This document shows, in pieces, positions 7,374-24,717 of a DNA stretch of 64,000 bases. The notes below the pieces were generated by a model. It had not been told where the DNA came from. It did not search any database and was given only the letters and a program-made list of their open reading frames with translations. Each line of letters opens with the position of its first letter. Position 1 is the first letter of the stretch. The DNA lies in the NCBI RefSeq assembly GCF_900217815.1, contig NZ_OBMT01000001.1:558001-622000 (forward strand), read 5' to 3'. The DNA is from Rhodobacter maris. GTDB lineage: Bacteria > Pseudomonadota > Alphaproteobacteria > Rhodobacterales > Rhodobacteraceae. Made by a program: the position numbers and the translations under genes.

Positions 7374-7386
7374 CGCTCTCGCCCTC

Positions 7387-7719
7387 TCACGCCGCGCTTT
7401 CTGTCTTCATCTGTGCGGCATCGAGCAGAACCCGCCCGGCCTCGACCTTTGCCGCAAAGGTCTGCACCTGCCCAGTGTCCGCCCCCTGCGCCTGCCCGGT
7501 TTCGAGGCTGAACACCCAGTTGTGCAGCGGGCAGGTGACCTTGTGGCCATGCACGATCCCCTCCGAGAGCGGGCCGCCCTTGTGCGCGCAGCGATCTGCA
7601 AGCGCGAACACCCGGTCATCGGCGGTGCGAAACACCGCAACGCAGCCCAGTTTGGTGCGCACGACGCGCGCGCCCTGCGCGGGGATGTCTTCGAGCGCTC
7701 CGATATCGACAAAGCTCAT
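7387..7719 (-). CDS. nirD: Nitrite reductase (NADH) small subunit, Rieske-type
   Basis: A 110-residue Rieske-like protein, partner of the large siroheme subunit NirB in reducing nitrite to ammonium with NADH. The cluster-binding motifs are complete: Cys-Ala-His (CAHKGGPLSEG) and Cys-x2-His (CPLHNW). Many NirD proteins, such as that of E. coli, have lost these ligands, so a real [2Fe-2S] cluster is likely here. The ATG overlaps the nirB stop codon (ATGA), supporting equal production of the two subunits. Confidence 0.92.
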   Translation of the reverse strand: MSFVDIGALEDIPAQGARVVRTKLGCVAVFRTADDRVFALADRCAHKGGPLSEGIVHGHKVTCPLHNWVFSLETGQAQGADTGQVQTFAAKVEAGRVLLDAAQMKTESAA

Positions 7720-10154
7720 TCGGCGGCCTCCTTCGTCAGATCGGCAAGCGGCGACCAGGCGCGCTGATAGTCCGGCGTGGCGCGCTCGGCCCAGGGGTCT
7801 TTTTGATAGATGGATTGCGAGAGATCGAAGCGCGCGATCAGGCAAGCGCGGTTTTCGAGGTCGTCCACCACCTGCGCGCGGATCCAGCCGAGCCCGCCGG
7901 TCTTGGCGATCCACTTGTAGGGCCGGTCAAGGTAGTTCGCGCTCTCGCGGTAAAGCTGCACGAACGCCACGGTGATGTCGATCACCTCCTCCTCGCTGGC
8001 GACTTTGGCGAGCGGCTCGGTCTCTTTCAGCTCCATCCCGGCCGCCCCGCCGACGCCGATCTCATAGCCGCTCTCGACGCAGATCACGCCCAGATCCTTG
8101 CAGGTGGCCTCGGCGCAGTTGCGCGGGCAACCGGTGACGGCGAGCTTGAACTTATGCGGCGTCCACGAGCCCCAGAGCCGCTTTTCGAGCTTGATGCCAA
8201 GGCCGGTGCTGTCTTGCGTGCCAAAGCGGCACCAGTCGGTGCCGACGCAGGTTTTTACCGTGCGCAGCCCCTTGCTATAGGCGTGACCCGAGACCATCCC
8301 TGCTGCATTCAGATCGGCCCAGATATGGGGCAGGTCTTCTTTTTTGATGCCCAAAAGGTCGATCCGCTGCCCGCCGGTCACCTTTACGGTGGCGTTGTAT
8401 TTCTTTGCCGCCGCGGCGATGGCCAGCAATTCATCGGGCGTGGTCATGCCGCCCCACATCCGCGGCATCACGCTATAAGTGCCGTCTTTCTGAATATTGG
8501 CGTGGTTGCGCTCGTTCACAAAACGGCTTTGCGGGTCGTCTTTATACTCCAGCGGCCAATCGGCGAGCAGGTAATAGTTCAGCGCCGGGCGGCAGCTGTG
8601 GCAGCCGTTTGGCGTTTTCCAGCCAAGCTCCTGCATCACCGCAGGCATGGATTTGAGCGCCTTCGCCTTGATCAGGCGGCGCACATCCTCATGCGGATGC
8701 TCGGTGCAGCCGCACATGGGCCGCGCGGTGGGGGCAACGAAGGCATCCCCCAAGGTCACGGCCAGCACCTGCTCGACCAGCCCGGCGCAATTGCCGCATG
8801 AGGCGCTGGCCTTGGTGGTGGCCTTGATCGCATCGAGCGTGGTGGCGCCATTCTGGATCGCCGTGACGATGGCGCCCTTGCACACGCCGTTGCAGCCGCA
8901 GATCTCTGCGTCAGCCGGTAAGGCTGCAACGGCCGCCATAGGGTCCGCGGGCGCGCCCCCCTGAAAGGCCGGGCCAAAGATCAGCGTCTCGCGCATCTCG
9001 GAGACATCGGTTGCGTCCTTGATCAGGCCAAAGAACCAGTTGCCATCCGCCACATCGCCATAAAGCACCGCGCCAATCAGGCGGTTTCCCTCCAGCACGA
9101 GGCGCTTGTAAACGCCGCGCGCCGGGTCGCGGAACACGATATCCTCGCGCTCCGGGCCTTCGGCAAAGTCGCCCGCCGAGAAGAGATCGCAGCCGGTGAC
9201 CTTGAGCTTGGTCGAGACCTCGCGCGGCGTGAAGCTCGCGCTTTCGCCCGAGAGCGTTGCGGCGGCAACCTTGGCCTGATCGTAAAGCGGCGCGACGAGG
9301 CCGAAGAGCTGGCCCTCGAACTCGATGCATTCCCCAAGCGCGAGCACATCGGGGTTCGAGCTGCGCATCTGCGCATCGACCTGAATGCCGCGCCCGACCG
9401 CGAGGCCCGCCGCGCGCCCCAGGGCGGAGGCCGGGCGGATGCCCACGGCCATCACAAGGAGGTCACAGGGAAGTTCGGTGCCGTCATCCAGCCTCAGCGC
9501 CCGGACCTTGCCGTTTTCGCCCAGAATCTCTTTGGAATTGGCCGAACAGAGCACTTCGATGCCACGGTCCACCAGCGCCCGGCGCAGCAGATAGCCCGCG
9601 GCCGGATCCAGCTGCCGCTCCATCAGATGCCCCATCAGGTGAACGACCGTCACCTCCATGCCGCGCAGCCGCATGCCCGCCGCCGCCTCAAGGCCCAAGA
9701 GTCCGCCGCCGATCACCACGGCGCGCGCGCCGGGCGCCGCGGCCTCGATCATCCGGTTGGTATCCTCAAGGTCGCGGTAAGCGATCACGCCCTCCAGATC
9801 GCGCCCCGGCAGCGGGATCATGAAGGGCTCCGAGCCGGTGGCGATGACGAGCTTGTCATAGGCCACCGCGCCCTTTTCGCCCGTCACTTCCTTGCGGGCG
9901 GTGTCGATGCTCACCACCCGTTCGCCAAAGCGACAGGTGACGCCATGGGCCTCATACCAGCCCGCATCATGGGTGACGATTTCCTCAAAGCTTTTCTCGC
10001 CCGAAAGCACCGGCGAGAGCATGATGCGGTTGTAATTGCCACGTGGCTCCGCATTGAAAAGGGTGACGTCCCATTCTCCCGGCGCCACCTCGAACAGATG
10101 TTCGAGCATCCGCCCGGAGGCCATGCCCGCCCCGATTACGACCAGCTTTTTCAT
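7716..10154 (-). CDS. nirB: Nitrite reductase (NADH) large subunit, siroheme
   Basis: An 812-residue cytoplasmic enzyme reducing nitrite to ammonium. From the N-terminus: an FAD/NAD(P) binding module beginning KKLVVIGAGMASG, the second nucleotide motif (VVIGGGLLGLEAA), BFD-type [2Fe-2S] cysteines (ICGCNGVC and SCGNCAG), a second cysteine pair (MCGC and CHSC), and the nitrite/sulfite reductase half with siroheme-[4Fe-4S] ligands CVGTDWC and CPRNC. I chose the ATG at 10154 because it has a strong GAGGAGG ribosome binding site and starts directly with the FAD motif; the longer open frame runs back into the preceding gene. It follows the GAF gene by 10 bases and overlaps nirD. Confidence 0.94.
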   Translation of the reverse strand: MKKLVVIGAGMASGRMLEHLFEVAPGEWDVTLFNAEPRGNYNRIMLSPVLSGEKSFEEIVTHDAGWYEAHGVTCRFGERVVSIDTARKEVTGEKGAVAYDKLVIATGSEPFMIPLPGRDLEGVIAYRDLEDTNRMIEAAAPGARAVVIGGGLLGLEAAAGMRLRGMEVTVVHLMGHLMERQLDPAAGYLLRRALVDRGIEVLCSANSKEILGENGKVRALRLDDGTELPCDLLVMAVGIRPASALGRAAGLAVGRGIQVDAQMRSSNPDVLALGECIEFEGQLFGLVAPLYDQAKVAAATLSGESASFTPREVSTKLKVTGCDLFSAGDFAEGPEREDIVFRDPARGVYKRLVLEGNRLIGAVLYGDVADGNWFFGLIKDATDVSEMRETLIFGPAFQGGAPADPMAAVAALPADAEICGCNGVCKGAIVTAIQNGATTLDAIKATTKASASCGNCAGLVEQVLAVTLGDAFVAPTARPMCGCTEHPHEDVRRLIKAKALKSMPAVMQELGWKTPNGCHSCRPALNYYLLADWPLEYKDDPQSRFVNERNHANIQKDGTYSVMPRMWGGMTTPDELLAIAAAAKKYNATVKVTGGQRIDLLGIKKEDLPHIWADLNAAGMVSGHAYSKGLRTVKTCVGTDWCRFGTQDSTGLGIKLEKRLWGSWTPHKFKLAVTGCPRNCAEATCKDLGVICVESGYEIGVGGAAGMELKETEPLAKVASEEEVIDITVAFVQLYRESANYLDRPYKWIAKTGGLGWIRAQVVDDLENRACLIARFDLSQSIYQKDPWAERATPDYQRAWSPLADLTKEAAE

Positions 10155-10164
10155 CCGGGCCTCC

Positions 10165-11097
10165 TCACACATACCAGGCGACGACATGGGCGATCTCTTC
10201 GCCGCGATGGATCGGCAGGGCGACCATGGTGGAATAGCCTGCCGCGATCGTCTCCCCCGAGGAGACGACGGGCACGCCCGAGCCCAGCACCTGCCCGATC
10301 GGCCCTTGCCAGATCTGTGCGCGGCGGGGATTGTCTTCACTCCAGAGCGGGCCTTCGCGCTCACAGATGCCGTCGATCAGCACTGCGCCACCGTCCTTGC
10401 CGAGCCGCGCCTCGCGCGCGTCCCAGATCTCGAAGCGGCGCGCAATGGGGGTTCCGCGTGCCGAAAGCAGCGTCGCCACATAGGTTTGCCCGCCCGGCAC
10501 CGGCACCGGCAGGCCGAGCCCGGTCGTCAGCCCCGCCGCTCCCGCGCTTTCTGAGCGGATGAAGCGGTAACCCGAACCAAGGTCACGAAACAGCATCGGC
10601 GTTTGCGCCGCCCAGACCCCGCCCGGAAGCCCCTGCCCTTTCGGGAAATGCGTGTGCTGGCTGACCCATTCGAAATGTTTGGCCGCACCGTAATAGCCGT
10701 CGTCGAGCATCAGAAGCCCATCGCGCTCAGCCCAGACCTCGATCGCACCCGTGGTGGTTTCATCCTCGCCGCAAAGGACGACGAGCACGGCATTCAACCT
10801 GTCTCCGGCAAAGACCGGCAGCGCCACTGCCGCGGTGAGGCCCGCCTCCTGCGCCGCCTCCTTGCGCTTGAACGACACCGGGTCAAAGCCCTTGAACACC
10901 ACCGGGCGGGCCTCGGCCCAGGCCTTGCCGGGCAGGCCTTCGCCATAACCGAAGCTCGTCTGCATCGAGGTCTGCTCGAACGCGCCCAGCGCGCCATAAC
11001 TGCCCTCGGCCAGCACGAGCCGGTCGCCCTCGGGCACCCAAACCTCGCTGACGGTGATGAAACTGCGGGGAGAAAGAGCGTTTGCGGTGTCCATCAT
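10165..11097 (-). CDS. GAF-repeat protein of the nas operon, function unknown
   Basis: A 310-residue soluble protein with no signal peptide or helix segment. I see two clear copies of a GAF-like unit (about 10-125 and 125-250): each has a G-x-G-LPG-x-x-W motif (YGEGLPGKAW, KGQGLPGGVW) followed by an ALPV/GLPVPV strand and a closing IEVW/FEIW. A shorter third copy is at about 250-310 (GPIGQVLGSG, MVALPIHRG). GAF folds usually bind small ligands or haem. It is translationally coupled to nasD (ATGA overlap, GGAGG site) and precedes nirB, so it is made together with the importer and the reductases. A sensor or assembly role is possible; I have no sequence evidence for a specific function. Confidence 0.7.
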   Translation of the reverse strand: MMDTANALSPRSFITVSEVWVPEGDRLVLAEGSYGALGAFEQTSMQTSFGYGEGLPGKAWAEARPVVFKGFDPVSFKRKEAAQEAGLTAAVALPVFAGDRLNAVLVVLCGEDETTTGAIEVWAERDGLLMLDDGYYGAAKHFEWVSQHTHFPKGQGLPGGVWAAQTPMLFRDLGSGYRFIRSESAGAAGLTTGLGLPVPVPGGQTYVATLLSARGTPIARRFEIWDAREARLGKDGGAVLIDGICEREGPLWSEDNPRRAQIWQGPIGQVLGSGVPVVSSGETIAAGYSTMVALPIHRGEEIAHVVAWYV

Positions 11098-12749
11098 GCG
11101 GCCTCCGACGTTTTTGCGGGCTTGTGGCCCTTTTCATATTCTTCAAGGAAGTTGAGCACCTGCTCGCGGTAGAGGTAGTAATCGGGGTGTTCGAGCAGGG
11201 CCTTGCGGGTGCGCGGGCGCGGCAGATCCACCTTCATCACGCGCCCGATTGTGGCGCGCGGCCCGTTCGTCATCATCACCACCCGGTCGGCGAGCAGGAT
11301 CGCCTCGTCCACATCATGGGTGACGCAGACGGCGGTGACCTTGGTGCGCGACCAGACCTCCATCAGCACCTCCTGCAGCTCCCAGCGAGTGAGGCTGTCG
11401 AGCATGCCGAAGGGTTCGTCGAGGAGCAGCAGTTTGGGCGAGAGCGCGAAGGCGCGGGCAATGCCGACGCGCTGGCGCATGCCGTTCGACATTTCGCTAG
11501 CGGGGCGGTCCATCGCATCGGCAAGGCCGACGCGCTCGAGGTAGTAATCGACCACGTCCTGCCGCTCGGCGCGGCTCGCCTTCGGGTAGACCTTGTCCAC
11601 CCCCACGGCGACGTTTTCGCGCGCCGAAAGCCAGGGGAAGAGCGAGGGTGACTGGAACACCACGGCGCGTTCCGGGTCTGCGCCCTTCACCTCGAAGCCG
11701 TCGAGCTTGATACCGCCGAGCGAGACATCGGTGAGCCCCGCGGTCATCGTGAGCACGGTAGATTTGCCGCAGCCCGAATGGCCGATGAGAGAGACGAATT
11801 CGCCCTTTTTTAGCGTCAGATCAAAATTTTCCACCACGGTGAGCGGGCCTTTCGGCGTCGGGTAGACTTTGTGCAGCCGGGAGTAGTCCAGATAGCGATC
11901 TTCCAGCGCCGAACGCGCCGCCTCGGACACCGCCTTGGGCAGCGCATGGAGCGGCACCACGTCGGGCAACTGCCGCGCGCCCTCGCGTTTGGCCGAAATG
12001 CCGACATCCATCAGATAGGTGGTCACATCGGCGCGCAGGCGCTTGAAGGCGGCATCATGGTTCATCGCGCCCCGGTCGCGCGGACGGGGGATCTTCACCT
12101 CGAAGCTTTGGCCGAGCGAGCCATCGGGATTGAGCGCAATGATCCGGTCGGCGAGCACGATCGCTTCATCCACATCATTGGTGATCAGCACGCAGGTTTT
12201 GCGGTCGGCCTCCCAGATATGCTCGATTTCATCCGCCAGATTGGCGCGGGTGAGCGCATCGAGCGCCGAGAGCGGCTCGTCGAGCAGCAGCACCTCGGGG
12301 TTCATGGCGAGCGCGCGCGCCACGTTCACCCGCTGGCGCATGCCGCCCGAAAGCTCGGCCGGGCGACGCAAGGCGGCATGGCTGAGGCCAACCATCTTGA
12401 CGAAATGCGCCACCTTTTCGGCGCGCTCGTTGCGCGGCAGGCCGGGGAAGATCGTGTCGACTGCGAGCGCCACGTTTTCGCTCACTGTCAGCCAGGGCAT
12501 CAGCGAGTAGTTCTGGAAGATCACGCCGCGCTCGGGGCCGGGGCCGGTGATGGGGGCGCCCTTGAAGCGGACCTCCCCTTCGGTCGGCATCTCGAGCCCG
12601 GCCATCAGGTTGATCAGCGTGGTCTTGCCGGTGCCCGAAAAGCCCAGAAGCACCAGAAACTCGCCTTCCTGCACGCTCAGGTCGATATTGCACAACACGG
12701 GCGTGGTGCCGAAGCTTTTGGAGACGTTGGAAAACTCTAAGATCGCCAT
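11094..12749 (-). CDS. nasD: Nitrate ABC importer, fused double ATPase
   Basis: A 551-residue protein made of two ABC ATPase domains in one chain, driving nitrate/nitrite uptake with NasE and NasF. Domain 1 has Walker A GFSGTGKTT (36-44), signature LSGGM (133-137) and Walker B LLLDEP, but Asn191 where the H-loop His should be. Domain 2 has Walker A GHSGCGKST, Walker B LLLDEP and H-loop His478, but a changed signature MSNGM (420-424). A linker of about 70 residues joins them. The start at 12749 has a GAGGG purine run and lies 5 bases after the nasE stop; an in-frame GTG at 12758 has no ribosome binding site. Confidence 0.9.
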   Translation of the reverse strand: MAILEFSNVSKSFGTTPVLCNIDLSVQEGEFLVLLGFSGTGKTTLINLMAGLEMPTEGEVRFKGAPITGPGPERGVIFQNYSLMPWLTVSENVALAVDTIFPGLPRNERAEKVAHFVKMVGLSHAALRRPAELSGGMRQRVNVARALAMNPEVLLLDEPLSALDALTRANLADEIEHIWEADRKTCVLITNDVDEAIVLADRIIALNPDGSLGQSFEVKIPRPRDRGAMNHDAAFKRLRADVTTYLMDVGISAKREGARQLPDVVPLHALPKAVSEAARSALEDRYLDYSRLHKVYPTPKGPLTVVENFDLTLKKGEFVSLIGHSGCGKSTVLTMTAGLTDVSLGGIKLDGFEVKGADPERAVVFQSPSLFPWLSARENVAVGVDKVYPKASRAERQDVVDYYLERVGLADAMDRPASEMSNGMRQRVGIARAFALSPKLLLLDEPFGMLDSLTRWELQEVLMEVWSRTKVTAVCVTHDVDEAILLADRVVMMTNGPRATIGRVMKVDLPRPRTRKALLEHPDYYLYREQVLNFLEEYEKGHKPAKTSEAA

Positions 12750-12754
12750 GGCCC

Positions 12755-13840
12755 TCACCGATTGTTCGAGAAGGTGAAAAGCGACTGGATTGCGAACATC
12801 ATCCGATCAAGCACGAAGCCGATGATGCCGATGGTGAACACCGCCACCATGATCCGCGCGAGGCTGTCCGAGGAGCCGTTCTGGAATTCGTCCCAGACGA
12901 ATTTGCCAAGGCCGGGGTTTTGCGCCAGCATCTCGGCGGCAATCAACACCATCCAGCCCACGCCGAGCGAAAGGCGCAACCCGGTGAAGATGAGCGGCAG
13001 CGCCGAGGGCAGCACGAGCTTGGTGATCTTGGTCCAGGTGCTCATTTTCAGCACTTTGGAGACGTTGACGAGATCGCGGTCGATCGAGGCAACGCCAAGG
13101 GCGGTGTTGATGATTGTGGGCCAGAGCGAGCAGAGCGTGACGGTGATGGCCGAGATCAGGAAGCTTTTCGAGAACATCCCGTCGGTCGTGGTGTAGAGCG
13201 CGGAGACGACCATGGTGACAATCGGCAGCCACGCGAGCGGGGAGACCGGCTTGAAGATCTGGATCAGCGGGTTCATCGCCGCATTGGCGGTTTTGGAAAG
13301 CCCCGCCATGATGCCCAGCGGCACGGCGATCACGGTGCCGATCAGAAAGCCGAAGAACACGGTCTTGATCGAGGTCCAGATCTGCAACGGGTAAGTGGGT
13401 TTGCCAGTGTAATCGCGGCTCTTGACCTTGTCGGCCTTGCCCTCGGCAATGAGCTTGGCGTTGCGCGCGTCTTGCCGGGAGTAAAAGTCAGCGGCCTTTT
13501 GCGCCTCGCGCTGATGGTCAGCCCAGAGCACGCCGACCTGATCCCAAACCTGCGCCGGGCCGGGGATGGCGCCAAGCGAGGTTTGGACCTTGGGCGCGAG
13601 CGCGGCCCAGGCGCCAAGGAAAAGCGCAATCGCAAGCAGCGGCACGCCGAGCAGTTGCCAGATCTCGCGGCCCTGCGCTTTCGGGTCATCGCCCGCCGCA
13701 ATGCGCAGCATCGGCGTCAGCCAGGCGAGGCCCAGCACCTTGAACCAGCCATCGGCACGGGTGATGCGGGCATGAAACACGGCGCGGCGCTCGGCGCGGG
13801 CGGCGCTTTGGGCGAGGGTTTCGGGGTCAATCGCGGTCAT
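12755..13840 (-). CDS. nasE: Nitrate ABC importer permease
   Basis: A 361-residue inner membrane permease of the NrtB/TauC type. A long cytoplasmic N-terminus precedes a first helix at about 65-82. A periplasmic segment of about 75 residues, rich in charged residues, separates it from the core helices (about 160-185, 205-222, 230-250, 290-310 and 325-345). The EAA-type loop that contacts the ATPase is the SKVLKMSTWTKITKLVLP region. It lies 71 bases after nasF, separated by a stem-loop, and 5 bases before nasD. In a nitrate importer it would work as a homodimer on the fused ATPase. Confidence 0.9.
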   Translation of the reverse strand: MTAIDPETLAQSAARAERRAVFHARITRADGWFKVLGLAWLTPMLRIAAGDDPKAQGREIWQLLGVPLLAIALFLGAWAALAPKVQTSLGAIPGPAQVWDQVGVLWADHQREAQKAADFYSRQDARNAKLIAEGKADKVKSRDYTGKPTYPLQIWTSIKTVFFGFLIGTVIAVPLGIMAGLSKTANAAMNPLIQIFKPVSPLAWLPIVTMVVSALYTTTDGMFSKSFLISAITVTLCSLWPTIINTALGVASIDRDLVNVSKVLKMSTWTKITKLVLPSALPLIFTGLRLSLGVGWMVLIAAEMLAQNPGLGKFVWDEFQNGSSDSLARIMVAVFTIGIIGFVLDRMMFAIQSLFTFSNNR

Positions 13841-13879
13841 GGCGGTCCTCTGGGAGCTGGCTCGGTCCGGGCGAAAAAT

Positions 13880-13903
13880 GGCGGAGGGGGGGCACCCTCC
13901 GCC
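13880..13903 (-). terminator. Intercistronic stem-loop between nasF and nasE
   Basis: A perfect 9-bp stem GGCGGAGGG/CCCTCCGCC with a 6-base loop, followed in the direction of transcription by ATTTTTCGC. It lies directly after the nasF stop and has the form of an intrinsic terminator. In ABC operons such an element usually protects the binding-protein mRNA or lets only part of the transcripts continue, giving more binding protein than permease. Confidence 0.6.
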
Positions 13904-13911
13904 GGGGCGGA

Positions 13912-15279
13912 TCAGCCCTCGATCTTGTTGCCGACGAGGTGCTGGTCGCCCTTCAGCCCGAAGGGCAGGCTGTCGATATAGGCGTTGGGGTGGCGGCCGT
14001 CGTAGCCGATGCCGTCGATCACATCCGCGCCCGGCGTGGGCGCCTTGTAGCCATCGCTGTCCCAGGGGAAGTCGGCCTCATTGGCATTGCCTTCCTCAAC
14101 CAGCATCTTCGCGGCGTCGAGGTAGATCGCGGGCTTGTAGACCGATTTCGCGGTCTCGTCATACCAGGTGTCCGGGTGGGCTTCTGCAATCTGGCCCCAG
14201 CGGCGCATCTGGGTGAGATACCAGATCGCATCCGAGTAGAAGGGATAGGTCGCGTTGTAGCGGAAGAACACGTTGAAATCGGGCACCTCGCGCTTGTCGC
14301 CCGCTTCATATTCAAACGTGCCGGTCATCGAATTGGCGATCACCGCCGCATCGGCGCCCACATATTCGGGTCGCGACAGGATCTCCACCGCCTCGGCGCG
14401 GTTGGCGTTGTTGTCGGCATCGAGCCAGATCGCCGCGCGGATCAGCGCCTTGGTCAGCGCGAGCGTGGTGTTGGGGTTCTCCTCGACGAATTTCTCAGTC
14501 AGGCCGAACACTTTTTCCGGGTTGTTCTTCCAGATCTCGTAATCGGTCACCACCGGCACGCCGATGCCCTTCACCACCGCCTGCTGGTTCCACGGCTCGC
14601 CCACGCAATAGCCGTAGATCGTGCCGGCCTCGAGCGTGGCGGGCATCTGCGGCGGCGGGGTGACAGAGAGCAGAACCTCGGCGCCGATCTGGCCGGAGAC
14701 GTCGTCGGGCGCATAAAGGCCGGGGTTGATGCCGCCCGCGGCGAGCCAGTAGCGCAGCTCGTAATTGTGGGTCGAGACCGGGAACACCATGCCCATGTTG
14801 AAGGGCTTGCCCTCGGCGCGGTATTTTTCGACCACCGGCTTGAGCGCGGCCGCCGAGATCGGATGCGCAGGTTTGCCATCGGCGCCCACGGGCACATTGG
14901 CCTTCATCTCTTCCCAGATCGCGTTCGAGACGGTGATGCCGTTGCCGTTGAGATCCATCGAGAAGGGCGTGACGATATGCGCCTCGGTGCCATAGCCGAT
15001 GGTGGCGGCGAGCGGCTGGCCCGCCAGCATATGCGCGCCGTCAAGCTCGCCCGAGATCACACGATCAAGGAGCACCTTCCAGTTCGCCTGCGGTTCAAGC
15101 GTGACGTAAAGCCCCTCGTCTTCGAAAAAGCCCTTTTCATAAGCGATGGCGAGCGGCGCCATATCGGTGAGCTTGATGAAGCCGAGCGTGAGTTCGTCCT
15201 TCTCGAGATCCAGCATCTCCGCGAAGGCGGGGCTGGCGAGGAAGGTCGTGGCGGCCATCACGGCCAGGAGCTTTTTCAT
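13912..15279 (-). CDS. nasF: Nitrate ABC importer, periplasmic binding protein
   Basis: A 455-residue NrtA-type nitrate/nitrite binding protein. The first 20 residues ([20 protein letters not shown]) form a Sec signal peptide ending in AFA, so the mature protein is periplasmic. The family features [20 protein letters not shown] and [12 protein letters not shown] are present. I chose the ATG at 15279, which begins the signal peptide and follows AGGGACAG; an upstream in-frame ATG would put 20 extra residues before it. It is the first gene after the NasT-responsive leader and precedes the permease and ATPase. Its nearest relative in the window is NasS, which lacks a signal peptide. Confidence 0.92.
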
Positions 15280-15309
15280 CGGTTCTGTCCCTGTTGCATC
15301 TGCATGCGC

Positions 15310-15386
15310 CGAAAACGAAAAAGCCGCCCGACCTAACACGCGTCTTCCGGGGAGGTGGAAGAGAAGCGATCAGGTCGGACGGCTTT
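15310..15386 (-). terminator. Leader terminator upstream of nasF (antitermination target)
   Basis: In the transcript AAAGCCGTCCGACCT (15386-15372) pairs with AGGTCGGGCGGCTTT (15334-15320): 15 pairs with one G-U. The 37-base loop holds a minor TCTTCC/GGAAGA hairpin. A T-rich run (TTTCGTTTTC, 15319-15310) follows. It ends about 30 bases before the nasF ATG, so transcription would stop before nasF unless antiterminated. Confidence 0.85.
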
Positions 15387-15393
15387 GTCCTGA

Positions 15394-15445
15394 GCCCCGC
15401 CGCGATGCGGGGCGGAATGTCGAGGTTCGGAACGCCCTTGCTCCG
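15394..15445 (-). promoter_or_regulatory. Double-hexaloop ANTAR (NasT) binding RNA motif
   Basis: Two adjacent hairpins in the nasF leader. P1 (15445-15428) is CGGAGC-AAGGGC-GTTCCG and P2 (15413-15394) is GCCCCGC-ATCGCG-GCGGGGC, with a 14-base linker. Both loops are six bases with A at position 1 and G at position 4, the rule described for ANTAR-domain targets. The terminator stem starts 7 bases after P2. NasT, encoded just upstream, has an ANTAR domain, so binding should prevent termination when nitrate is present. Confidence 0.82.
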
Positions 15446-15555
15446 ATATTCATAAAATGCGCGACCGACCGCCGCAGGGTCAAGCGTGCCGAACCATTCT
15501 GCGCCCGCGCAGGCTGCGTTTTCTGCGGCTGCGTTAAGAACTGCTTACGAAAGCG

Positions 15556-16734
15556 TCATGCGGACGCGGAAGGGTCAAAAATCCATCCGTCGAAAAACGC
15601 ATCGGCAGGCAGAATCACCTTTCCCTGCTTGGCGGGAAAGGCTGTGGGGCGGTGCAGGCCACCCTCGATCTTGTCGCGCGCAGCGGGGAGATCCGCCCCC
15701 AGATCGGCCAGATTCGCCGCATAAAGATCGGTCCGGCAGATCGCGCGGGCGGCGGCGCGGGCGGGGTCGGGGGCAAGGCCGTGGCGCGCGGCGAGCCTTG
15801 TCGCCACAAGGGCCGCTTGCGACGCCCAGGGAAAACTGGCCGCGCCCGCATGGAAGGTCATGTAGCCGGGCGTTGCCCGCATCTCCCCGCGCGGCGAAAT
15901 CACCAGATCGCCCGTCAGCGAGCGTTCGATGAGCTCGGGCGGAAGGTCCAGATAGTCGGGCCGGGCGAGGATCTCGGCGGCGGTGAGCAGGTTCTCCGCC
16001 GCGCCAAGCCAGCGCGTAGCTTGCCAGACCGCGCGCATCAAGGCCCGCGTCAGCGCGGGCTCCGCCTCGGCCCAGTCGTGTCGGACGGCCAGCACTTTCT
16101 CGGGCGCAGTGGCCCGGATTGCGGTGCCCGGAAGGAGCATCTCTCCCACGCCCAGTTCCACCGCAATCGAGCCCCAGGGCGCGCCCACGCAAAAGGCGTC
16201 GATCTCGCCCGCGCCGAGTGCCTTGGCCATCAGCGGCGGCGGCACGCTGCGCATCTCGAAATCGTCCGGTGCGCGCAGGCCGAGCGCCGCGAACCAGTGA
16301 TGCAGCAGCTCGGCATGCATCGAGAAAGGGAACGGCACGCCGACCCGGAGCGGTCCGGAGCGCGCCGCGATCAGCGCCGCGCCAGCGGCGAGCGCATCGG
16401 CAAAATCGAACCCGTGGCCCGCCGCGCGCATCTTTTGCGCCAGATCGCGCGAGACGCCGATCGAATTGCCATTGAGCGAGAGCACCTGCAGGATGTCGAC
16501 CCTGCTGGGGGCGCCGCCGAGCCCGAGCGCCGCCGCAATCGGCATCGGAAACAACATATGTGCCGCCGCGATCTGCCCGCGCAGGAGCTGATCGCGCAAG
16601 AGCGACCAGCTCGGCGCCGCCCGGAGCGTGAGCGCGAGCCCCTCTTGCTCGGCAAAGCCAATCTCGCGCGCGATGATCAGCGGCGCGGCATCGACAAGCG
16701 GGATGTAACCCGCAGTGATCGGCCGTCCGGTCAT
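15556..16734 (-). CDS. nasS: Nitrate sensor NasS, NrtA-like, cytoplasmic
   Basis: A 392-residue homologue of the nitrate binding protein without a signal peptide: it starts MTGRPITAGYIPLVDAAPLI, entering the binding fold at once. In the known NasS-NasT system NasS binds nitrate or nitrite in the cytoplasm and releases NasT, which then acts as an antiterminator. The ligand region FCVGAPWGSIAV corresponds to [12 protein letters not shown] of NasF. The ATG overlaps the nasT stop codon (ATGA), as expected for partners that form a complex. The gene ends about 110 bases before the first leader hairpin of nasF. Confidence 0.9.
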   Translation of the reverse strand: MTGRPITAGYIPLVDAAPLIIAREIGFAEQEGLALTLRAAPSWSLLRDQLLRGQIAAAHMLFPMPIAAALGLGGAPSRVDILQVLSLNGNSIGVSRDLAQKMRAAGHGFDFADALAAGAALIAARSGPLRVGVPFPFSMHAELLHHWFAALGLRAPDDFEMRSVPPPLMAKALGAGEIDAFCVGAPWGSIAVELGVGEMLLPGTAIRATAPEKVLAVRHDWAEAEPALTRALMRAVWQATRWLGAAENLLTAAEILARPDYLDLPPELIERSLTGDLVISPRGEMRATPGYMTFHAGAASFPWASQAALVATRLAARHGLAPDPARAAARAICRTDLYAANLADLGADLPAARDKIEGGLHRPTAFPAKQGKVILPADAFFDGWIFDPSASA

Positions 16735-17315
16735 GACAAAAGCCCGGCTGCGGTGACGAGTGCGGCCGCCACATCGGCGACTTTCCGGCCCTGATCCATC
16801 GCCGTCTTGCGCAAGAGTGCATAGGCGGCATCTTCGTCGATGCCGCGCGCCTTCATCAAAAGGCCCTTGGCACGGTCGATCACCTTGCGCTCCTCAAGGG
16901 CGCGCTTGGTGGTCTGCAATTCGATGCGCATCCGTTGCACCATGTTGAACCGCGCAATCGCCGCATCCATGATCGGCTGGATCCGGTCCGCGCGCAGCCC
17001 GTCGACCACATAGGCCGAGACGCCCGCATCGATCGCCACCTTGGTGGCGCTGCTGTCGGGCCGGTCGACGAACATCGCCACCGGGCGTTCGAGCGGACCA
17101 GACGCAAGGGTGAGTTCCTCGAGCATGTCGCGCGAGGGGCTGGCCATGTCGATCAGCACGATATCGGGATTGATCCCGGCGATGCGGCGCGCAAGGCCCG
17201 TGGTTTCGGGAATAACGGTGATCTTGTAGATCCCCGCCTCCCGCAGGCTTTCGGCAATCAGCCCCGCGCGCTCGGGATCAGTTTCGACGACAACAATGGA
17301 CAGCGTTTCAGGCAT
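16731..17315 (-). CDS. nasT: Nitrate-responsive antiterminator NasT (ANTAR)
   Basis: A 194-residue regulator with an N-terminal pseudo-receiver domain (about 1-120, starting PETLSIVVVETDPERAGLIA) and a C-terminal ANTAR RNA-binding domain (about 130-190; coiled helix, then ERKVIDRAKGLLMKARGIDE). It should bind the double-hexaloop RNA before nasF and allow transcription of the nas operon. I chose the ATG at 17315 because GGAAAG lies upstream at good spacing and the protein then has the usual NasT length. A longer frame would start at 17342, but that ATG is part of a TATAATG promoter-like box. Confidence 0.9.
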   Translation of the reverse strand: MPETLSIVVVETDPERAGLIAESLREAGIYKITVIPETTGLARRIAGINPDIVLIDMASPSRDMLEELTLASGPLERPVAMFVDRPDSSATKVAIDAGVSAYVVDGLRADRIQPIMDAAIARFNMVQRMRIELQTTKRALEERKVIDRAKGLLMKARGIDEDAAYALLRKTAMDQGRKVADVAAALVTAAGLLS

Positions 17316-17340
17316 CGGCGGCACTTTCCGGATTGCGCTC

Positions 17341-17346
17341 ATTATA
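17341..17346 (-). promoter_or_regulatory. Candidate -10 box of the nasTS promoter
   Basis: A perfect TATAAT on the minus strand 25 bases before the chosen nasT start, very rare in DNA of this GC content. It predicts a leader of about 20 bases. No good -35 box is seen at 16-18 bases (CTTCCG is the closest), so an activator may help. Confidence 0.45.
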
Positions 17347-17693
17347 TCCACGCGCCCCGTGACCGGAAGCGACAACGCCCCTGCCCGCTGCCGCATCGGT
17401 CAACGAGGCAAAGGCGTGGGCAGTATTTGCCGCGACGCCCAAATTTGAGGCAGCTTCGTTCTTGCTGCCCGTGCATCGCCTCGGATTTGATCAGATCGCA
17501 CGGGCCGAACCCTGGGCTTGGGCGGCAGCGGTGCTGGTTTTGCTTGCGAGTCACCTGCTGGCTTCCTAGCGTTGAGGCAGCGACAACGGTGTCGCTGTTT
17601 CCCGAACCTGGGATGATGGGCAAGGCTGCTCGACTCTGCACGACACAGCTCGTGCGGGTGTCGGCGGCCCTTTTGCGTTTGAGGAGCTGAGAG
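17347..17693. other. Divergent intergenic region nasT / uroporphyrinogen methyltransferase
   Basis: About 350 bases between divergent genes. I see no coding region here. The end before the plus-strand gene holds a GAGGAGCTGAGAG ribosome binding site. I could not find a convincing sigma-54 or NtrC site by eye. Several partly palindromic GC-rich patches have no clear function. Confidence 0.4.
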
Positions 17694-18605
17694 ATGACAG
17701 ATTTCCCGATGGTCCTGCAGAAGAACGGGCGCCGTGTCACGCTGGCGCGCCGGTTGCGCGGTGTGGTGGTGGCGGCGTTTTCGCGCCGCGCGTTCCGGGA
17801 GCGGGCCGGCGCCAAGATCCTGGAAGCCCGCGTCGACGGGTCTCAAAGCCATCACAAGACCGGACATATTGCGCTTGTTGGCGCGGGGCCCGGCGCGCGC
17901 GACCTGCTGACCCTGCGCGCGGTGCGACGCCTGCAGGACGCGGATGTGATCTTTTATGACCGGCTCGTCGACCCGGATGTTCTGGAGATCGCACGGCACG
18001 ATGCCATGCGGGTCTATGTCGGCAAAGATCTGGGCACAGCGGCCTCGTCGCAGGCGCGGATCGACCGAATGATTGTGACCGAGGCCGCGCGCGGCAAACG
18101 GGTCGTGCGGTTAAAATCAGGCGATCCCTCGATTTTCGGGCGCGCCACCGAAGAAATCGATGCCGCGCGCGCCGCCGGAATCGAAATTGAAATCGTGCCC
18201 GGGATCACCGCAGCCTCGGCGGCGGCGGCCGCCGCCTGCCAGCCACTGACCGAACGCGGCGAAACCGACACTTTCGTCATCACGACGGGCACTTGCCGTC
18301 CGGGTGACGCCGCACCCGATCGCAGCCTCCTGGCGCGCCCCGGAACCACGATCGCTTTCTACATGTCAGTCGAAAAGGCCGCGCAGGTGCAGGCGGAGCT
18401 GATCGCGGCCGGAGCCCCCGCGACCTGCCCGGTGCAAATCCTGGCCGCGGTTTGCACCCCGCGCGAGAAGCGCGCCGAGACGACACTCGCCCATCTGGCC
18501 GAGACCGTGCGTGCCGAGGGCATTCTCAACCCGGCGATCCTCATGGTGCGTTACCCGAAATCGCTCGCACAGGCTGTCCTTCGCGGGGCGCGCGTCGCCG
18601 CCTGA
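17694..18605 (+). CDS. cobA: Uroporphyrinogen-III C-methyltransferase with N-terminal remnant
   Basis: A 303-residue SAM-dependent methyltransferase turning uroporphyrinogen III into precorrin-2, first step to siroheme and cobalamin; siroheme is the cofactor of NirB. The SUMT domain starts at about residue 58 (IALVGAGPGARDLLTLRA) and shows RVVRLKSGDPSIFGR and EIVPGITAASAA. The first 57 residues begin TDFPMVLQKNGRRVTL, which resembles the start of full CysG proteins, but the NAD-binding G-x-G-x-x-A region is missing. This looks like a deleted precorrin-2 dehydrogenase/ferrochelatase domain, so the later siroheme steps must be supplied by another gene. It is divergent from nasT. Confidence 0.88.
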   Translation: MTDFPMVLQKNGRRVTLARRLRGVVVAAFSRRAFRERAGAKILEARVDGSQSHHKTGHIALVGAGPGARDLLTLRAVRRLQDADVIFYDRLVDPDVLEIARHDAMRVYVGKDLGTAASSQARIDRMIVTEAARGKRVVRLKSGDPSIFGRATEEIDAARAAGIEIEIVPGITAASAAAAAACQPLTERGETDTFVITTGTCRPGDAAPDRSLLARPGTTIAFYMSVEKAAQVQAELIAAGAPATCPVQILAAVCTPREKRAETTLAHLAETVRAEGILNPAILMVRYPKSLAQAVLRGARVAA

Positions 18606-18718
18606 TGCTGTGAGCGGCCGGGCAATCCCTGCGGCGCGCTCCGCCCCGGACGCCCCCCTTGCAGCCCGGATTATGCCGCGCGATGCCGCACCGACTTGCA
18701 GCCGGGAACAAAATCGAC

Positions 18719-19642
18719 ATGATGGCCGCGACTGCGTTCATGGGTGCACAAATGCTGCTGGAAAACTGGGATGAAATCCGTACCGCTTATCAGGTGGCGC
18801 GCGTCGGTACGGTTTCGGGCGCGGCAGAGGTGCTCGGTGTGCACCATGCAACGGTGATCCGCCATGTCGATGCGCTCGAGGCCCGGCTCGGCACCAAGCT
18901 CTTCCAGCGCCATCCGCGCGGCTATACGCCGACCGAGGCGGGAGTCCAGCTTCTGGCCGTGGGTCAGGCGACCGAGGATCAGTTCGCCCAGCTTGCGGCG
19001 CGGATCGCAGGGGCAGGCGAGGAAATGCGCGGCGAGTTGATCATCACCTCGCTGCCGGCGCTGGCGGGCCTCGTGATGCCGGCGATGGCGGAGCTGATGC
19101 GCGAGCATCCCGCGCTGGTGCTGCGCTACATCACCGACCAGCGCGTGTTCCGGCTCGAATATGGCGAGGCACATGTGGCGATCCGCGCGGGCGCGCGGCC
19201 GACCGAGCCCGACAATGTGGTGAGCCAGCTCGGCACCAACCGCACCGCGCTTTATGCCGCGCCGGAATATCTTGCCCAATTCGGCACGCCGAAGGGGCTC
19301 GACGATCTCGCCGGGCATCGTTTCATCGGGCCGGACAGCCGCGAGAGCCGCGCGCCATTCTTTCGCTGGCTCGCGCAGACCCAACCGGCGGAAGCAGTGG
19401 TGTTCATGGCCAATGAGATCGCCTCGCAGGCGGCGGCGGTGCAGGCCGGGCTCGGGCTCGGGTTCCTGCCGGTGCTGCAGGCGCGTTCCGATCCCCGCAT
19501 CGTCGAGGTGATCGGCCCGCAGCCGGAATGGGACAGCCCGTTCTGGCTGGTCACACATGTGGACCTGCACCGCACGCCCAAGGTGCAGGCCGCGCTCAAG
19601 GCGTTGCGCACGGCGGCAGCGCGGCTTGATCTGCAGGGGTGA
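18719..19642 (+). CDS. LysR-family transcriptional regulator
   Basis: A DNA-binding activator or repressor of about 307 residues. The winged helix-turn-helix is at the N-terminus (VSGAAEVLGVHHATVIRHVDALEARLG in outline, cited here by its key residues SGAAEVLG and VHHATVIRHVD), followed by the LysR effector domain. The start is uncertain: ATG codons at 18719, 18740 and 18752 are in frame and none has a strong ribosome binding site; relatives usually begin close to ENWDEIRTAYQ, which favours 18752. The gene ends 10 bases from the end of opgC on the other strand. Its target is unknown; the divergent layout offers no clear candidate. Confidence 0.85.
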   Translation: MMAATAFMGAQMLLENWDEIRTAYQVARVGTVSGAAEVLGVHHATVIRHVDALEARLGTKLFQRHPRGYTPTEAGVQLLAVGQATEDQFAQLAARIAGAGEEMRGELIITSLPALAGLVMPAMAELMREHPALVLRYITDQRVFRLEYGEAHVAIRAGARPTEPDNVVSQLGTNRTALYAAPEYLAQFGTPKGLDDLAGHRFIGPDSRESRAPFFRWLAQTQPAEAVVFMANEIASQAAAVQAGLGLGFLPVLQARSDPRIVEVIGPQPEWDSPFWLVTHVDLHRTPKVQAALKALRTAAARLDLQG

Positions 19643-19652
19643 GCCGCGGCGC

Positions 19653-20825
19653 TCAGGCCGCCGCAGCTTTTGCCGGATGGGTGGGGTGCGGCTTGATATA
19701 TTCGCGGATCGCCGCGAAGGCCCACTGGATCGCGAGCCCCCCGAGGATCAGCACGCTGTCTTGGGCAAAGCCCGCCGGATGCGAGGTTTTCACCGCCTGG
19801 CTCAGGATCGCGAGCACGGTGCCGAGCGCGAAGACCTGAAGCCCCTGCTTGCCGAGGGTGCGGATCGGCTTGGCCCAGCGCGCCGCGGCAAGTTTCGGCA
19901 CCCCCCAGGGCAGCGAAAGCACATAGGCGAGCGCCATGAAGTGCAGGAGCCGCGGCCCCGAGACATAGGTCTTGTCGAATTCCACAAGGAAGAACGGCAC
20001 GCCCCATTGCCGCATCAGCCAAATTGCATGGCCGAGACCCTCCATCATCCCCGGGGACTGCACCCAGATCGCGGAAAAGATCAGCCAGGCCACTGCGGGC
20101 CAGATCAACCAGGGGGTCACCGGCACGAACCTTTGCCCTCCGCGCAGCGCGAGCCCGGTGAGGATGCCGAGGCAAAAGAGGAGTTGCCAGGCGAAGGGGT
20201 TGAAGAACCAGCCCCCCTCGAACGGGTAGTTCGGCGGATCGAGCCGGGTAAAGCCGGTCAACACCCAGAAGCCGAAGGTGAAGGCCAAAAGCCCCTTTGG
20301 CGAGCGCTGGCCAAGCCGGATCAGGAACGGCGCGCCGAGCAGGATCACCGCATACATCGGCAGGATGTTCACATAGCCGAGCTGATGGCCGAGTGTGGCG
20401 ATGCCGATCAAAAACTGCAACGGCCGATCGTTGAGCGGGCCGAAGGCATTGTGGTGCAGCATCTCCTCGCCGCCGAACCATAGCGCGGCGCTGGCCGCGA
20501 TGGCGATGGCCCAGACCGCTGTCAGGATATGCACCATGTAGAGAAGCCAGGCCCGGCCCCAGATCTTGCGGATACCCGGCCAGTTCATGCCGTCCCTGAG
20601 CCGCGGGCCATAGGCGAGCGCGGCCGCACACCCCGACATGAACACAAACCCTTCCGCCGCGTCGGAATGGCCGAAATTGCGCGAGGTGAAGTTCTCGTAG
20701 ATCGTGCCGGGCACATGATTGATGTAGATCATCACGAGGCTCAGGCCCCGGAAAAAATCAAGACGCGGATCCCGCGCCCCCTGCGGCAAGCCGCCGGGCT
20801 GCGGAGCGGAACGAAAATCAAACAT
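19653..20825 (-). CDS. opgC: Periplasmic glucan succinyltransferase OpgC
   Basis: A 390-residue polytopic inner membrane protein of the OpgC/acyltransferase-3-like type. It adds succinyl groups to osmoregulated periplasmic glucans, making them anionic. About ten helices are visible, beginning with RLDFFRGLSLVMIYINH near the N-terminus, which is the OpgC signature region. The longer open frame carries 45 extra residues that overlap opgH; the ATG at 20825 overlaps the opgH stop by 8 bases and matches the family start. It is the last gene of opgGIHC, as reported for R. sphaeroides. Confidence 0.88.
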   Translation of the reverse strand: MFDFRSAPQPGGLPQGARDPRLDFFRGLSLVMIYINHVPGTIYENFTSRNFGHSDAAEGFVFMSGCAAALAYGPRLRDGMNWPGIRKIWGRAWLLYMVHILTAVWAIAIAASAALWFGGEEMLHHNAFGPLNDRPLQFLIGIATLGHQLGYVNILPMYAVILLGAPFLIRLGQRSPKGLLAFTFGFWVLTGFTRLDPPNYPFEGGWFFNPFAWQLLFCLGILTGLALRGGQRFVPVTPWLIWPAVAWLIFSAIWVQSPGMMEGLGHAIWLMRQWGVPFFLVEFDKTYVSGPRLLHFMALAYVLSLPWGVPKLAAARWAKPIRTLGKQGLQVFALGTVLAILSQAVKTSHPAGFAQDSVLILGGLAIQWAFAAIREYIKPHPTHPAKAAAA

Positions 20826-22641
20826 GCTGAGCAGCAATTCCCTTGGCTGGTGCGGCCACCTTGGCCGACTGGCGCGGTTCCTGAGCCTCGGCGCGCTCTG
20901 CGTCAAGCGCCCAGCGGTCCAGGATGACATCGTGTAGCACCACCACGGCGGGCTTGGCATATTCGCTCGGCACGCCCATCAGCCGCGAGCGCGAGGGGCG
21001 CGAGGACCAGGCAAGGATTGCCGGTGCGAGCACCATCGGCAAGCCCACAGGCACGAGCCAGAGGAAAAGGCCGGGCGCGAAAGTCCAGGTGGCCATCAGC
21101 CCGACGAGACCGATGGTAACGATCCAGTGCGACGCGGCAAAGGCATCCTTGAGGCTCAACGTGCCGTCGCCACGGTTGTTGGTGGGCCAGCCCCCGTCGC
21201 GGCCGAGCAGAACCTGAAGCACCGAGCGGGTGGAATAGAGCAGCAGAACCGGCGCGGTGATGGAGGAAAGGAGCAGTTCCGCGAGGGTCGAGACGAAGGC
21301 GATGACAGGACCGCCGAACGCTTTGGCCTCCCGCGTGAGGGCCGCCCGCGCCGCGATCAGGATCTTCGGCAACAGCAGCAGCCCGAAGATGCCGATGGCG
21401 AGACCGATCGCCTTCGAGGCCTCCGACGGCGGGAAATAGGGGATCGGCCAATCGGGAATCGGGAAGTAGTCCGGCGGTGGGGCCAACAAGGGCGCGGCAA
21501 TCGAGGCAAGAATGAAACCGAGCCAGAACAGCGGCGCGATATAGGCCATGATGCCCTGCGCGAAGACGAAGCGAGACCAGGGTTTTAGCCCCGGCGCGCC
21601 GATGATGCGCGAATGCTGCAGGTTGCCCTGACACCAGCGCCGGTCGCGCTTGGCATGATCGACGATATTTTCAGGGCCTTCCTCGTAGCTGCCGCCGAGA
21701 TCGTCATCGAGACGCACGGTCCAGCCCGCCCGCGCGAGCATTGCCGCCTCGACATAGTCATGGCTCATCACATGGCCGCCAAACGGCGGCTTGCCGCGCA
21801 AGGGCGGTAGCCCGCAGCTTTCGGCGAAGGCGCGCACGCGCACAATCGCATTATGGCCCCAGAACGGGCCGGTGTGGCCCTGCATCATCGCCAGCCCCCG
21901 CGCGAAGACGGGCGAGAAGAAGGAGGCAGAGAACTGCATCGCCCGGCCAAACCGCGAGCGCGCGCGGATCACCTTGGGCAGCGTCTGCAAGAGGCCAAGG
22001 CGCGGCTCCGCCTCGATCCGGCGGATCATCTGCAGGATCGTCTCGCCTTCCATCAGGCTGTCGGCATCAAGGATGAGCGCATACTCATAGGCGCCGCCCG
22101 AGCGGGTGATGAAATCTTCGATATTGCCGGCCTTCTTGCCCGTATTCTGTTCGCGGCGGCGATAGAAGAACCGGCCAAGCGCGTTCCTCTCGGCCACCAG
22201 CTGCGCAAAGACCTGCTTTTCGCGCGCGGCGATCAGATCGTTGCGGGTGTCGGAAAGAACAGCGAAATGCACTTCGGCGGGATCCCCCGTCGCCGCAAGC
22301 GAGGCATCCATCGCCGCGATCCGGGCAAAGGTGACCATCGGATCTTCGTTATAGACCGGCACCAGAACCACAGTGCGGCCGCGGATCGGCGCTTTCGGAT
22401 CATAAGCGGGAGGGCGGGCCCGGGAAGTGAGCCCGATCAGCGCCTGCACCGCCCCCCAGGCGAGCCAGAGCGTCGAGATCAGGATCAGAACCGCGCGGGT
22501 GACATCGAGCGTGTCGATCCCGTCGGCCGCGCCGAACTGCAAGAACAGCACGAAAGCCCCGCCCCCGGCACAGAGGCTCAGCGCCACGGCAAACGCGCGC
22601 AGCGCATAGAGCCCTGCGCGAGAGAGGGCAGAAGGCATCAT
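20818..22641 (-). CDS. opgH: Periplasmic glucan glucosyltransferase OpgH
   Basis: A 607-residue inner membrane glycosyltransferase of family 2 that polymerises glucose from UDP-glucose into the backbone of osmoregulated periplasmic glucans. Helices lie at about 10-32 and 45-65. The cytoplasmic catalytic domain follows with VVLVPVYNEDP, the DADS metal motif, HDYVEAAMLARAGW and the RRWCQGNLQH acceptor motif. Five or six C-terminal helices begin at about 365. It lacks the long N-terminal cytoplasmic extension of E. coli OpgH. Two adjacent ATGs (22641 and 22638) are possible starts. It lies 4 bases after opgI and overlaps opgC. Confidence 0.92.
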   Translation of the reverse strand: MMPSALSRAGLYALRAFAVALSLCAGGGAFVLFLQFGAADGIDTLDVTRAVLILISTLWLAWGAVQALIGLTSRARPPAYDPKAPIRGRTVVLVPVYNEDPMVTFARIAAMDASLAATGDPAEVHFAVLSDTRNDLIAAREKQVFAQLVAERNALGRFFYRRREQNTGKKAGNIEDFITRSGGAYEYALILDADSLMEGETILQMIRRIEAEPRLGLLQTLPKVIRARSRFGRAMQFSASFFSPVFARGLAMMQGHTGPFWGHNAIVRVRAFAESCGLPPLRGKPPFGGHVMSHDYVEAAMLARAGWTVRLDDDLGGSYEEGPENIVDHAKRDRRWCQGNLQHSRIIGAPGLKPWSRFVFAQGIMAYIAPLFWLGFILASIAAPLLAPPPDYFPIPDWPIPYFPPSEASKAIGLAIGIFGLLLLPKILIAARAALTREAKAFGGPVIAFVSTLAELLLSSITAPVLLLYSTRSVLQVLLGRDGGWPTNNRGDGTLSLKDAFAASHWIVTIGLVGLMATWTFAPGLFLWLVPVGLPMVLAPAILAWSSRPSRSRLMGVPSEYAKPAVVVLHDVILDRWALDAERAEAQEPRQSAKVAAPAKGIAAQHV

Positions 22642-22645
22642 GGGT

Positions 22646-22861
22646 TCAGTGGCCGGTGCCGGCGGTGGGCGCGGCCGGGGGCAGCATGCCCGCCAAAAGG
22701 CGGCGCATCAGCCCGATGTCGTGCTCAATCACCTGATGGGGCATCGCGAGCGGCGCGAAAGGCAGCGCGCAGGGCCCGGCGATCAGCTCGTCGGCAGAAA
22801 GGTTTACGCGGGACGCGGGGTCAGACGCGAGCGCAGCGGGAGGGAGGGTATGCGCGGTCAT
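22646..22861 (-). CDS. opgI: Small protein OpgI, needed for glucan backbone synthesis
   Basis: A 71-residue protein between opgG and opgH. Its ATG overlaps the opgG stop codon (ATGA) and its stop is 4 bases before opgH, so it is clearly translated within the operon. It has no helix or signal peptide; it is rich in Pro and Ala at both ends, with a central segment LPFAPLAMPHQVIEHDIGLM. By position it corresponds to opgI of R. sphaeroides, which was reported as necessary for backbone synthesis. I infer the identity from gene order, not from a recognised motif. It may supply the missing N-terminal part of OpgH. Confidence 0.72.
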   Translation of the reverse strand: MTAHTLPPAALASDPASRVNLSADELIAGPCALPFAPLAMPHQVIEHDIGLMRRLLAGMLPPAAPTAGTGH

Positions 22862-24507: not shown

Positions 24508-24566
24508 GGTTTTCGTTCAAACTCATATAGTTCTAAAGGCCGCCCGAAGGCTGCCTAACTGCTGTT

Positions 24567-24596: not shown

Positions 24597-24717
24597 GAGA
24601 GATTGCGTCACACCCCCGTCAAATGGGCGGTACTCCCCCGGTTTCGGCGCAAAGTTGCGCAACCCCGGGGCGAAGCGTGCGAAAATTACGGATTCTGCGC
24701 AAGCGAAGGCGTTTCAT

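Follow-up and report, generated by a model that had tools for sequence, protein, structure and literature searches.

A putative NasT-controlled leader with three hexaloop hairpins before the nasF operon of Rhodobacter maris

The window, a 64,000-nucleotide stretch of the Rhodobacter maris genome, carries a nas locus on its minus strand. The nasT gene (16731–17315, minus strand; start assigned by homology) encodes an ANTAR-domain antiterminator (Pfam ANTAR, 79.3 bits), the sole ANTAR match in this genome at E-values up to 0.001, in keeping with its naming as the regulator in an initial annotation made from the DNA letters. It is followed directly by nasS (15556–16734, minus strand), whose NrtA-like product (Pfam NMT1_2) is presumed to be the nitrate/nitrite sensor that holds NasT; the adjacent genes and domains expected of a NasS–NasT system are thus present. 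Beyond these lies a presumed single operon (4716–15279, minus strand) in the order nasF, nasE, nasD, GAF protein, nirB, nirD, nasA. Within it, nasF occupies 15279–13912, the gene for a GAF-domain protein lies between nasD and nirB (10165–11097), and the last gene (4716–7373) encodes an assimilatory nitrate reductase-like protein, NasA, with a C-terminal BFD-like [2Fe-2S] domain, all on the minus strand. Both this operon order and the position of nasTS directly upstream of the leader agree with the initial annotation.

NasT was aligned with EutV of Enterococcus faecalis using our own numbering offset of 2. The residues aligned with EutV R142, K143, K149, E160, Y164, R168 and M172 were invariant in 10 NasT sequences, and those kept in the window's NasT include, by this alignment, the G4 contacts and the methionine plug. 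EutV N173, R175 and R177 align with D, G and K and are not kept. As the triple change of these three residues is described in the available text of PMC8934654 as abolishing EutV binding, these positions count against control of the leader by NasT.

The nasF leader lies on the minus strand between the end of nasS (15556) and the nasF ATG (15279). It contains three hairpins with six-nucleotide loops that have A at loop position 1 and G at position 4 (A1/G4 hexaloops), all closed by a C-G pair and beginning within 54 bases of one another; a scan of the whole window gave 36 such C-G-closed loops on the plus strand and 26 on the minus strand with stems of at least 4 pairs. The first hairpin, P0 (15427–15446), reads TCGGAGC-AAGGGC-GTTCCGA. 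It is followed by the middle hairpin, Pm (15394–15413; GCCCCGC-ATCGCG-GCGGGGC), and then by P2 (15377–15390; GGAC-AAAGCC-GTCC). The spacing is 13 nt from P0 to Pm, 3 nt from Pm to P2 and 36 nt from P0 to P2, and the loops of Pm and P2 start 20 nt apart (24 in eutP). An intrinsic terminator occupies 15310–15386, with a stem at 15386–15320 whose arms begin AAAGCCGTCCGACCT and end AGGTCGGGCGGCTTT, and with a U-tract; its T-run lies about 30 bases before the nasF ATG.

The initial annotation had described two hexaloop hairpins (P0 and Pm, there called P1 and P2), a 14-base linker, counted from an 18-mer form of P0 to GCCCCGC-ATCGCG-GCGGGGC, a terminator and a T-run. All of these are present on the minus strand. 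The leader was also said to be complete with two hexaloops, which does not hold, as GGAC-AAAGCC-GTCC had been missed. This third hexaloop matters because, in the available text of PMC3369931, PMC3369936 and PMC7496416, the last hairpin of ANTAR antiterminators shares bases with the terminator. Pm, which had been taken for the second ANTAR hairpin, has no such overlap. The terminator stem opens with ten bases that are also the loop and 3' arm of P2, and P2 is the only one of the three to overlap the terminator. P2 is thus likely the antiterminator hairpin, and P2 and the terminator are predicted by folding to be mutually exclusive.

The region 15470–15300 folded into a more stable structure (z = −4.05) than dinucleotide-shuffled versions of it, none of 200 reaching an energy as low. 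When folding of the growing transcript was modelled in 6-nt steps, P0, Pm and P2 were predicted together at lengths of 72–114 nt, except at 96 nt, where P2 was rearranged. The predicted energies of the isolated elements were −44.1 kcal/mol for the terminator and −4.0 kcal/mol for P2, and in the modelled series the terminator then replaces P2. The window's P2 is weak, and its GGAC/GTCC stem differs from the GAGC/GCTC usual in the family.

A probable promoter, TTGACC-18 nt-CATTTT, was found at 15454–15483 (minus strand), with a predicted start at about 15447, the foot of P0. In 70 of 95 leaders, against a mean of 10.8 in shuffles, a TTG stands 41–50 nt ahead of the P0 loop, and A/T is enriched across leaders at the −10 spacing behind it; a plain sigma-70 scan gave no promoter at its threshold. 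From these positions, transcription probably starts just before P0. A start downstream of the terminator, with which the leader would never be made, looks unlikely, the positionally conserved −35/−10 pair placing the predicted start ahead of all three hairpins. Upstream of the nasF promoter, TGC-Nx-GCA inverted repeats were enriched, most strongly with N6 (43 of 95 leaders; shuffles 5.75) and likewise with N3, N4, N7, N9 and N11. The window's own repeat, TGCGCGGGCGCA, is at 15511–15500 (minus strand), 72 nt before the P0 loop. These repeats are perhaps an operator.

NasT matches were obtained in 61 of 149 genomes from the same family as the window, its own among them, in 48 of 289 genomes of the class and, counting weak matches, in 108 of 299 of the phylum. 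Neighbourhoods were taken from part of the NasT-bearing genomes and from 80 named loci; of the 60 NasT-bearing relatives in the family survey, all except G021 and G022 were re-fetched. A first set of 59 sequences gave 54 nasS–nasF intervals, the window's included, after five that yielded no usable one had been dropped (L040, L048, L051, L060 and L061). A hexaloop feeding a T-tailed terminator was present in 51 of the 54, and in 47 of these 51 a second A1/G4 hexaloop lay 38–63 nt upstream (median 49); the P2 positions of L036 and L077 were placed by hand for this count. The downstream hexaloop of the relatives, often GAGC-AAAGCC-GCTC, corresponds to the missed P2, and the upstream one, about 49 nt away, to P0. 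Counted by their distance from 162 P2 candidates, A1/G4 hexaloops with stems of at least 4 pairs peaked at 43–54 nt (88 hexaloops) and 18–23 nt (17). Loops of 7 nt peaked at 20–22 nt (26). The shuffle expectation was about 0.06 per position.

In the larger survey P2 was found in 135 of 180 loci, duplicates and loci lacking nasS included, and clustering reduced these to 124 leaders: 103 in the family set, 20 from other alphaproteobacteria and the window's own. The label family, or Rhodobacteraceae, here denotes the route by which a sequence was fetched (the family search, or the closest named matches except L210). P0 with A1/G4 was found at 40–57 nt in 94 of the 103 family leaders, against 2.1 in shuffles, and with stems of at least 4 pairs in 70 (shuffles 0.7). 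When the loop letters were ignored, a P0 with a 6-nt loop remained in 77 leaders, with A1 in 73, G4 in 73 and the C-G closing pair in 74. Pm was found at 17–24 nt in 63 of 103 (shuffles about 4.5), as an A1/G4 hexaloop in 8 and as a 7-nt loop with G4 in 55. Its loop length varies with the scoring rule: scored as a 7-nt loop (80 of 103) it had A1 in 35, G4 in 54 and the C-G closing pair in 62; under 6-nt scoring (72 of 103) A1 was present in 31 and G4 in 30; and with loops of 5–8 nt and stems of at least 4 pairs allowed, a hairpin was present at this site in 96 of 103 (6 nt in 43, 5 nt in 31, 7 nt in 16 and 8 nt in 6). From these loop-letter counts, P0 and P2 are the strict sites in the window's family and Pm a relaxed one, so that the proper A1/G4 hexaloop of the window's Pm has a relaxed counterpart in most relatives. 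Among the other alphaproteobacteria, P0 was seen in 9 of 20 leaders, Pm in 8 and both in 4.

Alignment A2 held 86 of 95 eligible leaders and alignment A3 28 of 94. The invariance of P0 and P2 in A2 is built in, because both were chosen partly by A1/G4. The outer pairs of P0 played no part in the selection; they pair in 61, 60 and 68 of the 86 rows, with both sides changed in 30, 33 and 31. P0 pairs thus covary. Covariation in the Pm stem was weak, most stems being CCC/GGG. The mean folding energy of the P0–P2 interval was lower than that of its shuffles (−7.85 versus −5.18 kcal/mol), and there was no support for the length of the interval being compensated by the length of Pm (correlation 0.43; shuffles mean 0.27, maximum 0.51). 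All three hairpins appeared as A1/G4 hexaloops in 22 leaders from several groups, the window's included, across 2.0 Mb of mostly nasT neighbourhoods; three shuffled sets averaged 0.67. By eye, three loci from named Paracoccus species (L156, L159 and L169) also appear to have three A1/G4 hexaloops after nasS, some with short stems. No long T-run follows their last hexaloop, and termination may differ there.

These counts bear on which hairpins do the work. NasT might bind the hairpins at 15446–15427 and 15413–15394 as a complete dual motif and switch the terminator with no overlapping hairpin, and their two C-G-closed A1/G4 hexaloops, 13–14 nt apart, do have that form. Such an arrangement is very improbable given that neither hairpin overlaps the terminator, that the relatives conserve another, terminator-overlapping hexaloop as P2, and that, among the three loops, conservation is lowest in the middle hairpin. 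A more serious, if still unlikely, possibility is that NasT works through the canonical close pair of Pm and P2, with P0 no more than an accessory loading hairpin. In other proteobacteria, outside the alpha class, 13 of 20 composites have an A1/G4 hexaloop 17–27 nt before P2 and a few have another further up, and a hexaloop of this kind lies 17–24 nt before P2 in 6 of 20 leaders from other alphaproteobacteria. In the window's family, by contrast, the strict hexaloops are P0 and P2, and no more than 8 of 103 leaders have Pm as an A1/G4 hexaloop (A1 in 35 and G4 in 54 of 80 under 7-nt scoring).

Rfam models gave no ANTAR family match in 12000–30000 at E-values up to 5. Two covariance models were built, R1 from 86 leaders including the window's and R2 from 28 relatives excluding it. 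Within the window, the nasF leader scored 40.4 bits with R1 and 35.1 bits with R2 (E = 1.2e-10), and a second site at 17579–17631 (plus strand) scored 26.6 and 23.1 bits (E = 1.7e-6), respectively. A third R2 match at 27871–27961 (plus strand; 11.3 bits, E = 0.021) was taken as background. Searches of the whole genome scored the best 150 of 1,700 first-look candidates for R1 and the best 150 of 2,426 for R2, and among the latter the nasF leader was the best match. Seven further R1 matches in the genome, scoring above three others, showed, by eye, no hexaloop overlapping a T-tailed hairpin. These searches missed the site at 17579–17631, so the list of NasT targets that they provide is incomplete.

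At E-values up to 1e-4, R2 matched 36 of 100 family genomes. Of the 40 that have NasT, 35 were matched; of the 60 that lack it, 1 was, and this single match was the weakest of all. At least 9 of the 35 matched NasT-bearing genomes had supplied training leaders, which makes the 60 NasT-free genomes the cleaner control. The 41 individual matches included 33 at the expected nasS–nasF site, as judged by distance from nasT, and 2 before nasF on another contig (G008 and G022). A further 3 lay before siroheme-synthesis genes (G071, G088 and G092), and 3 were read as spurious (G098:C94, G038:C15 and G028).

The second site in the window is itself a NasT-type leader (17574–17632, plus strand), with two A1/G4 hexaloops, GAGGCAGCGAC-AACGGT-GTCGCTGTTTC and TGGGC-AAGGCT-GCTCG, the last of which is overlapped by a terminator with a U-tract (17624–17680, approximate ends, plus strand). 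It sits directly before a cobA-type gene for uroporphyrinogen-III C-methyltransferase, an enzyme of siroheme synthesis (17694–18605, plus strand), whose product has a CysG-like start and the methyltransferase half and lacks the N-terminal dehydrogenase domain. A search of the genome, run without a positive control, found no close CysG N-domain elsewhere. The initial annotation had the whole operon opened at one point, the nasF leader; with this second leader, single-point control is too strong a claim. A terminator-like hairpin in the nasF–nasE gap also speaks against it (13903–13880, minus strand; 9 pairs, 8 of them G-C, with a T-tail). It may lower expression of the operon genes that follow, compared with that of the binding protein, and terminator-like hairpins were no commoner in the scanned region than in shuffles.

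Nineteen relatives had both NasT and a strong cobA/cysG match, and in 17 the best match was on the contig of nasT. In 16 of these 17 the gene shared the strand of nasT and lay 10–15 kb downstream of it, the position expected, by distance, for the end of a nas operon. In the remaining one, G071, a full CysG with its own leader lies 228 kb from nasT, and R1 run over 30 cobA/cysG loci matched only there and at the window's own. In G088 the gene encodes a methyltransferase that lacks the N-terminal part of CysG and lies 230 kb from nasT, and in G092 a full CysG is on a contig other than that of nasT, each with a leader. In four genera, the window's included, a siroheme-synthesis gene apart from the nasS–nasF site thus carries a NasT-type leader. 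A strong intrinsic terminator after nasS could have been an ordinary end of the nasTS transcript, with hexaloops arising by chance in GC-rich DNA. That such leaders also precede siroheme-synthesis genes far from nasT, that the model follows NasT presence across genomes and that such hairpin sets are rare in shuffles leave this explanation with almost no credibility.

On the basis of sequence and comparison, the nasF leader is classed as a member of the ANTAR leaders, in a three-hairpin variant, and the initial assignment to NasT antitermination leaders was right and is well supported. The leader is very probably a NasT-controlled transcription attenuator in which P0 serves for loading and P2 competes with the terminator. 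Transcription would begin just before P0, and the nascent RNA is predicted to form P0, then Pm, then P2. When nitrate is absent, NasS would hold NasT, and the long terminator would oust the weak P2 and stop transcription before nasF. Nitrate or nitrite would free NasT to bind the hexaloops: it would load on the emerging P0 and hold P2. The ten bases that open the terminator stem would then remain in P2, and the polymerase would read through into nasFED-GAF-nirBD-nasA. Pm could be a third NasT site or a compact spacer; with P0 and P2 36 nt apart, it would act either as an intermediate site or by compacting the interval. The same NasT would switch the divergent cobA through its own leader. The further reading, that this is a true three-hexaloop ANTAR RNA for NasT and that a leader of this kind is kept or regained by siroheme-synthesis genes that are not part of the nas operon, is put forward tentatively and with some doubt.

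Several features count against this explanation. According to the available text of PMC3369931 and PMC8934654, antitermination was impaired or lost when the eutP linker was extended to 14 nt or had 20 nt added, the 20 extra bases abolishing the EutV effect (PMC8934654), and a 3-nt hairpin spacing likewise failed. Set beside these results, the 36 nt between P0 and P2 and the 3 nt between Pm and P2 are unfavourable; for ANTAR leaders of actinobacteria, linkers of 2–25 nt are described as accepted. The lack of an Rfam match, the poorly conserved Pm loop and the weak, atypical P2 also weigh against it.

Leaders of this kind could be misplaced or overlooked under the published definition of two hairpins and a tight linker, and by that definition the wrong second hairpin had been chosen here. 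With a conserved hexaloop some 49 nt away from P2 and another hairpin in the interval, these leaders would be a natural test of ANTAR loading on nascent RNA, by one dimer moving from hairpin to hairpin or by several bound at once. The additional cysG/cobA leaders would tie nitrate sensing to siroheme supply for NirB through a searchable RNA motif.

NasT leaders ahead of nas genes are already known. An ANTAR leader with three hexaloops was not found described in the available main texts of the open-licence literature, and the three-hexaloop variant is new only as far as that literature goes. In Paracoccus denitrificans, as far as the available text describes, NasT binds the nasA leader (PMC3795266), nasTS is upstream and the leader lies between nasS and the structural genes, as in the window, with the difference that it controls nasABGHC and not a nasFED-nirBD operon. 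Two hairpins, HI and HII, are named there, with no three-hexaloop structure described in the available parts of PMC3795266 and PMC5424462. They are placed 137 and 91 bp before nasA (PMC5424462), a difference of 46 bp that is close to the P0–P2 spacing of the window's relatives. HI was needed for growth on nitrate, and a change in HII left nitrate induction roughly intact and doubled the basal level (PMC5424462). Equating HI with P0 and HII with the terminator, by analogy, would fit; if HII were instead P2, the result would speak against the attenuator reading. After nitrate, NasT was in a state broadly consistent with a hexamer (PMC3795266), from which we infer that three NasT dimers could occupy three loops.

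In Pseudomonas aeruginosa, nirBD-PA1779-cobA is likewise a nitrate-assimilation operon under antitermination and includes cobA (title cited in PMC6759348), whereas the window's cobA is separate and divergent, with its own leader. The NasR-nasF leader of Klebsiella oxytoca shares with the window the A1/G4 hexaloops, the C-G closing pair, the overlap of P2 with the terminator and, presumably, the nitrate signal, and differs in having two hairpins and a one-component NIT-ANTAR sensor (PMC7496416, PMC3369936). The eut leaders of E. faecalis have two hairpins with 5–12-nt linkers, in contrast to the three hairpins and 36-nt P0–P2 spacing of the window, and show the exclusion between P2 and the terminator and the recognition of the hexaloop through G4 that are predicted for the window (PMC3369931, PMC8934654). 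A dimer of EutV is reported to hold a single hexaloop at any one time and is proposed to pass from P1 to P2 (PMC8934654), and this successive binding, first of an upstream hairpin and then of the antitermination hairpin, resembles the loading order proposed here for NasT.
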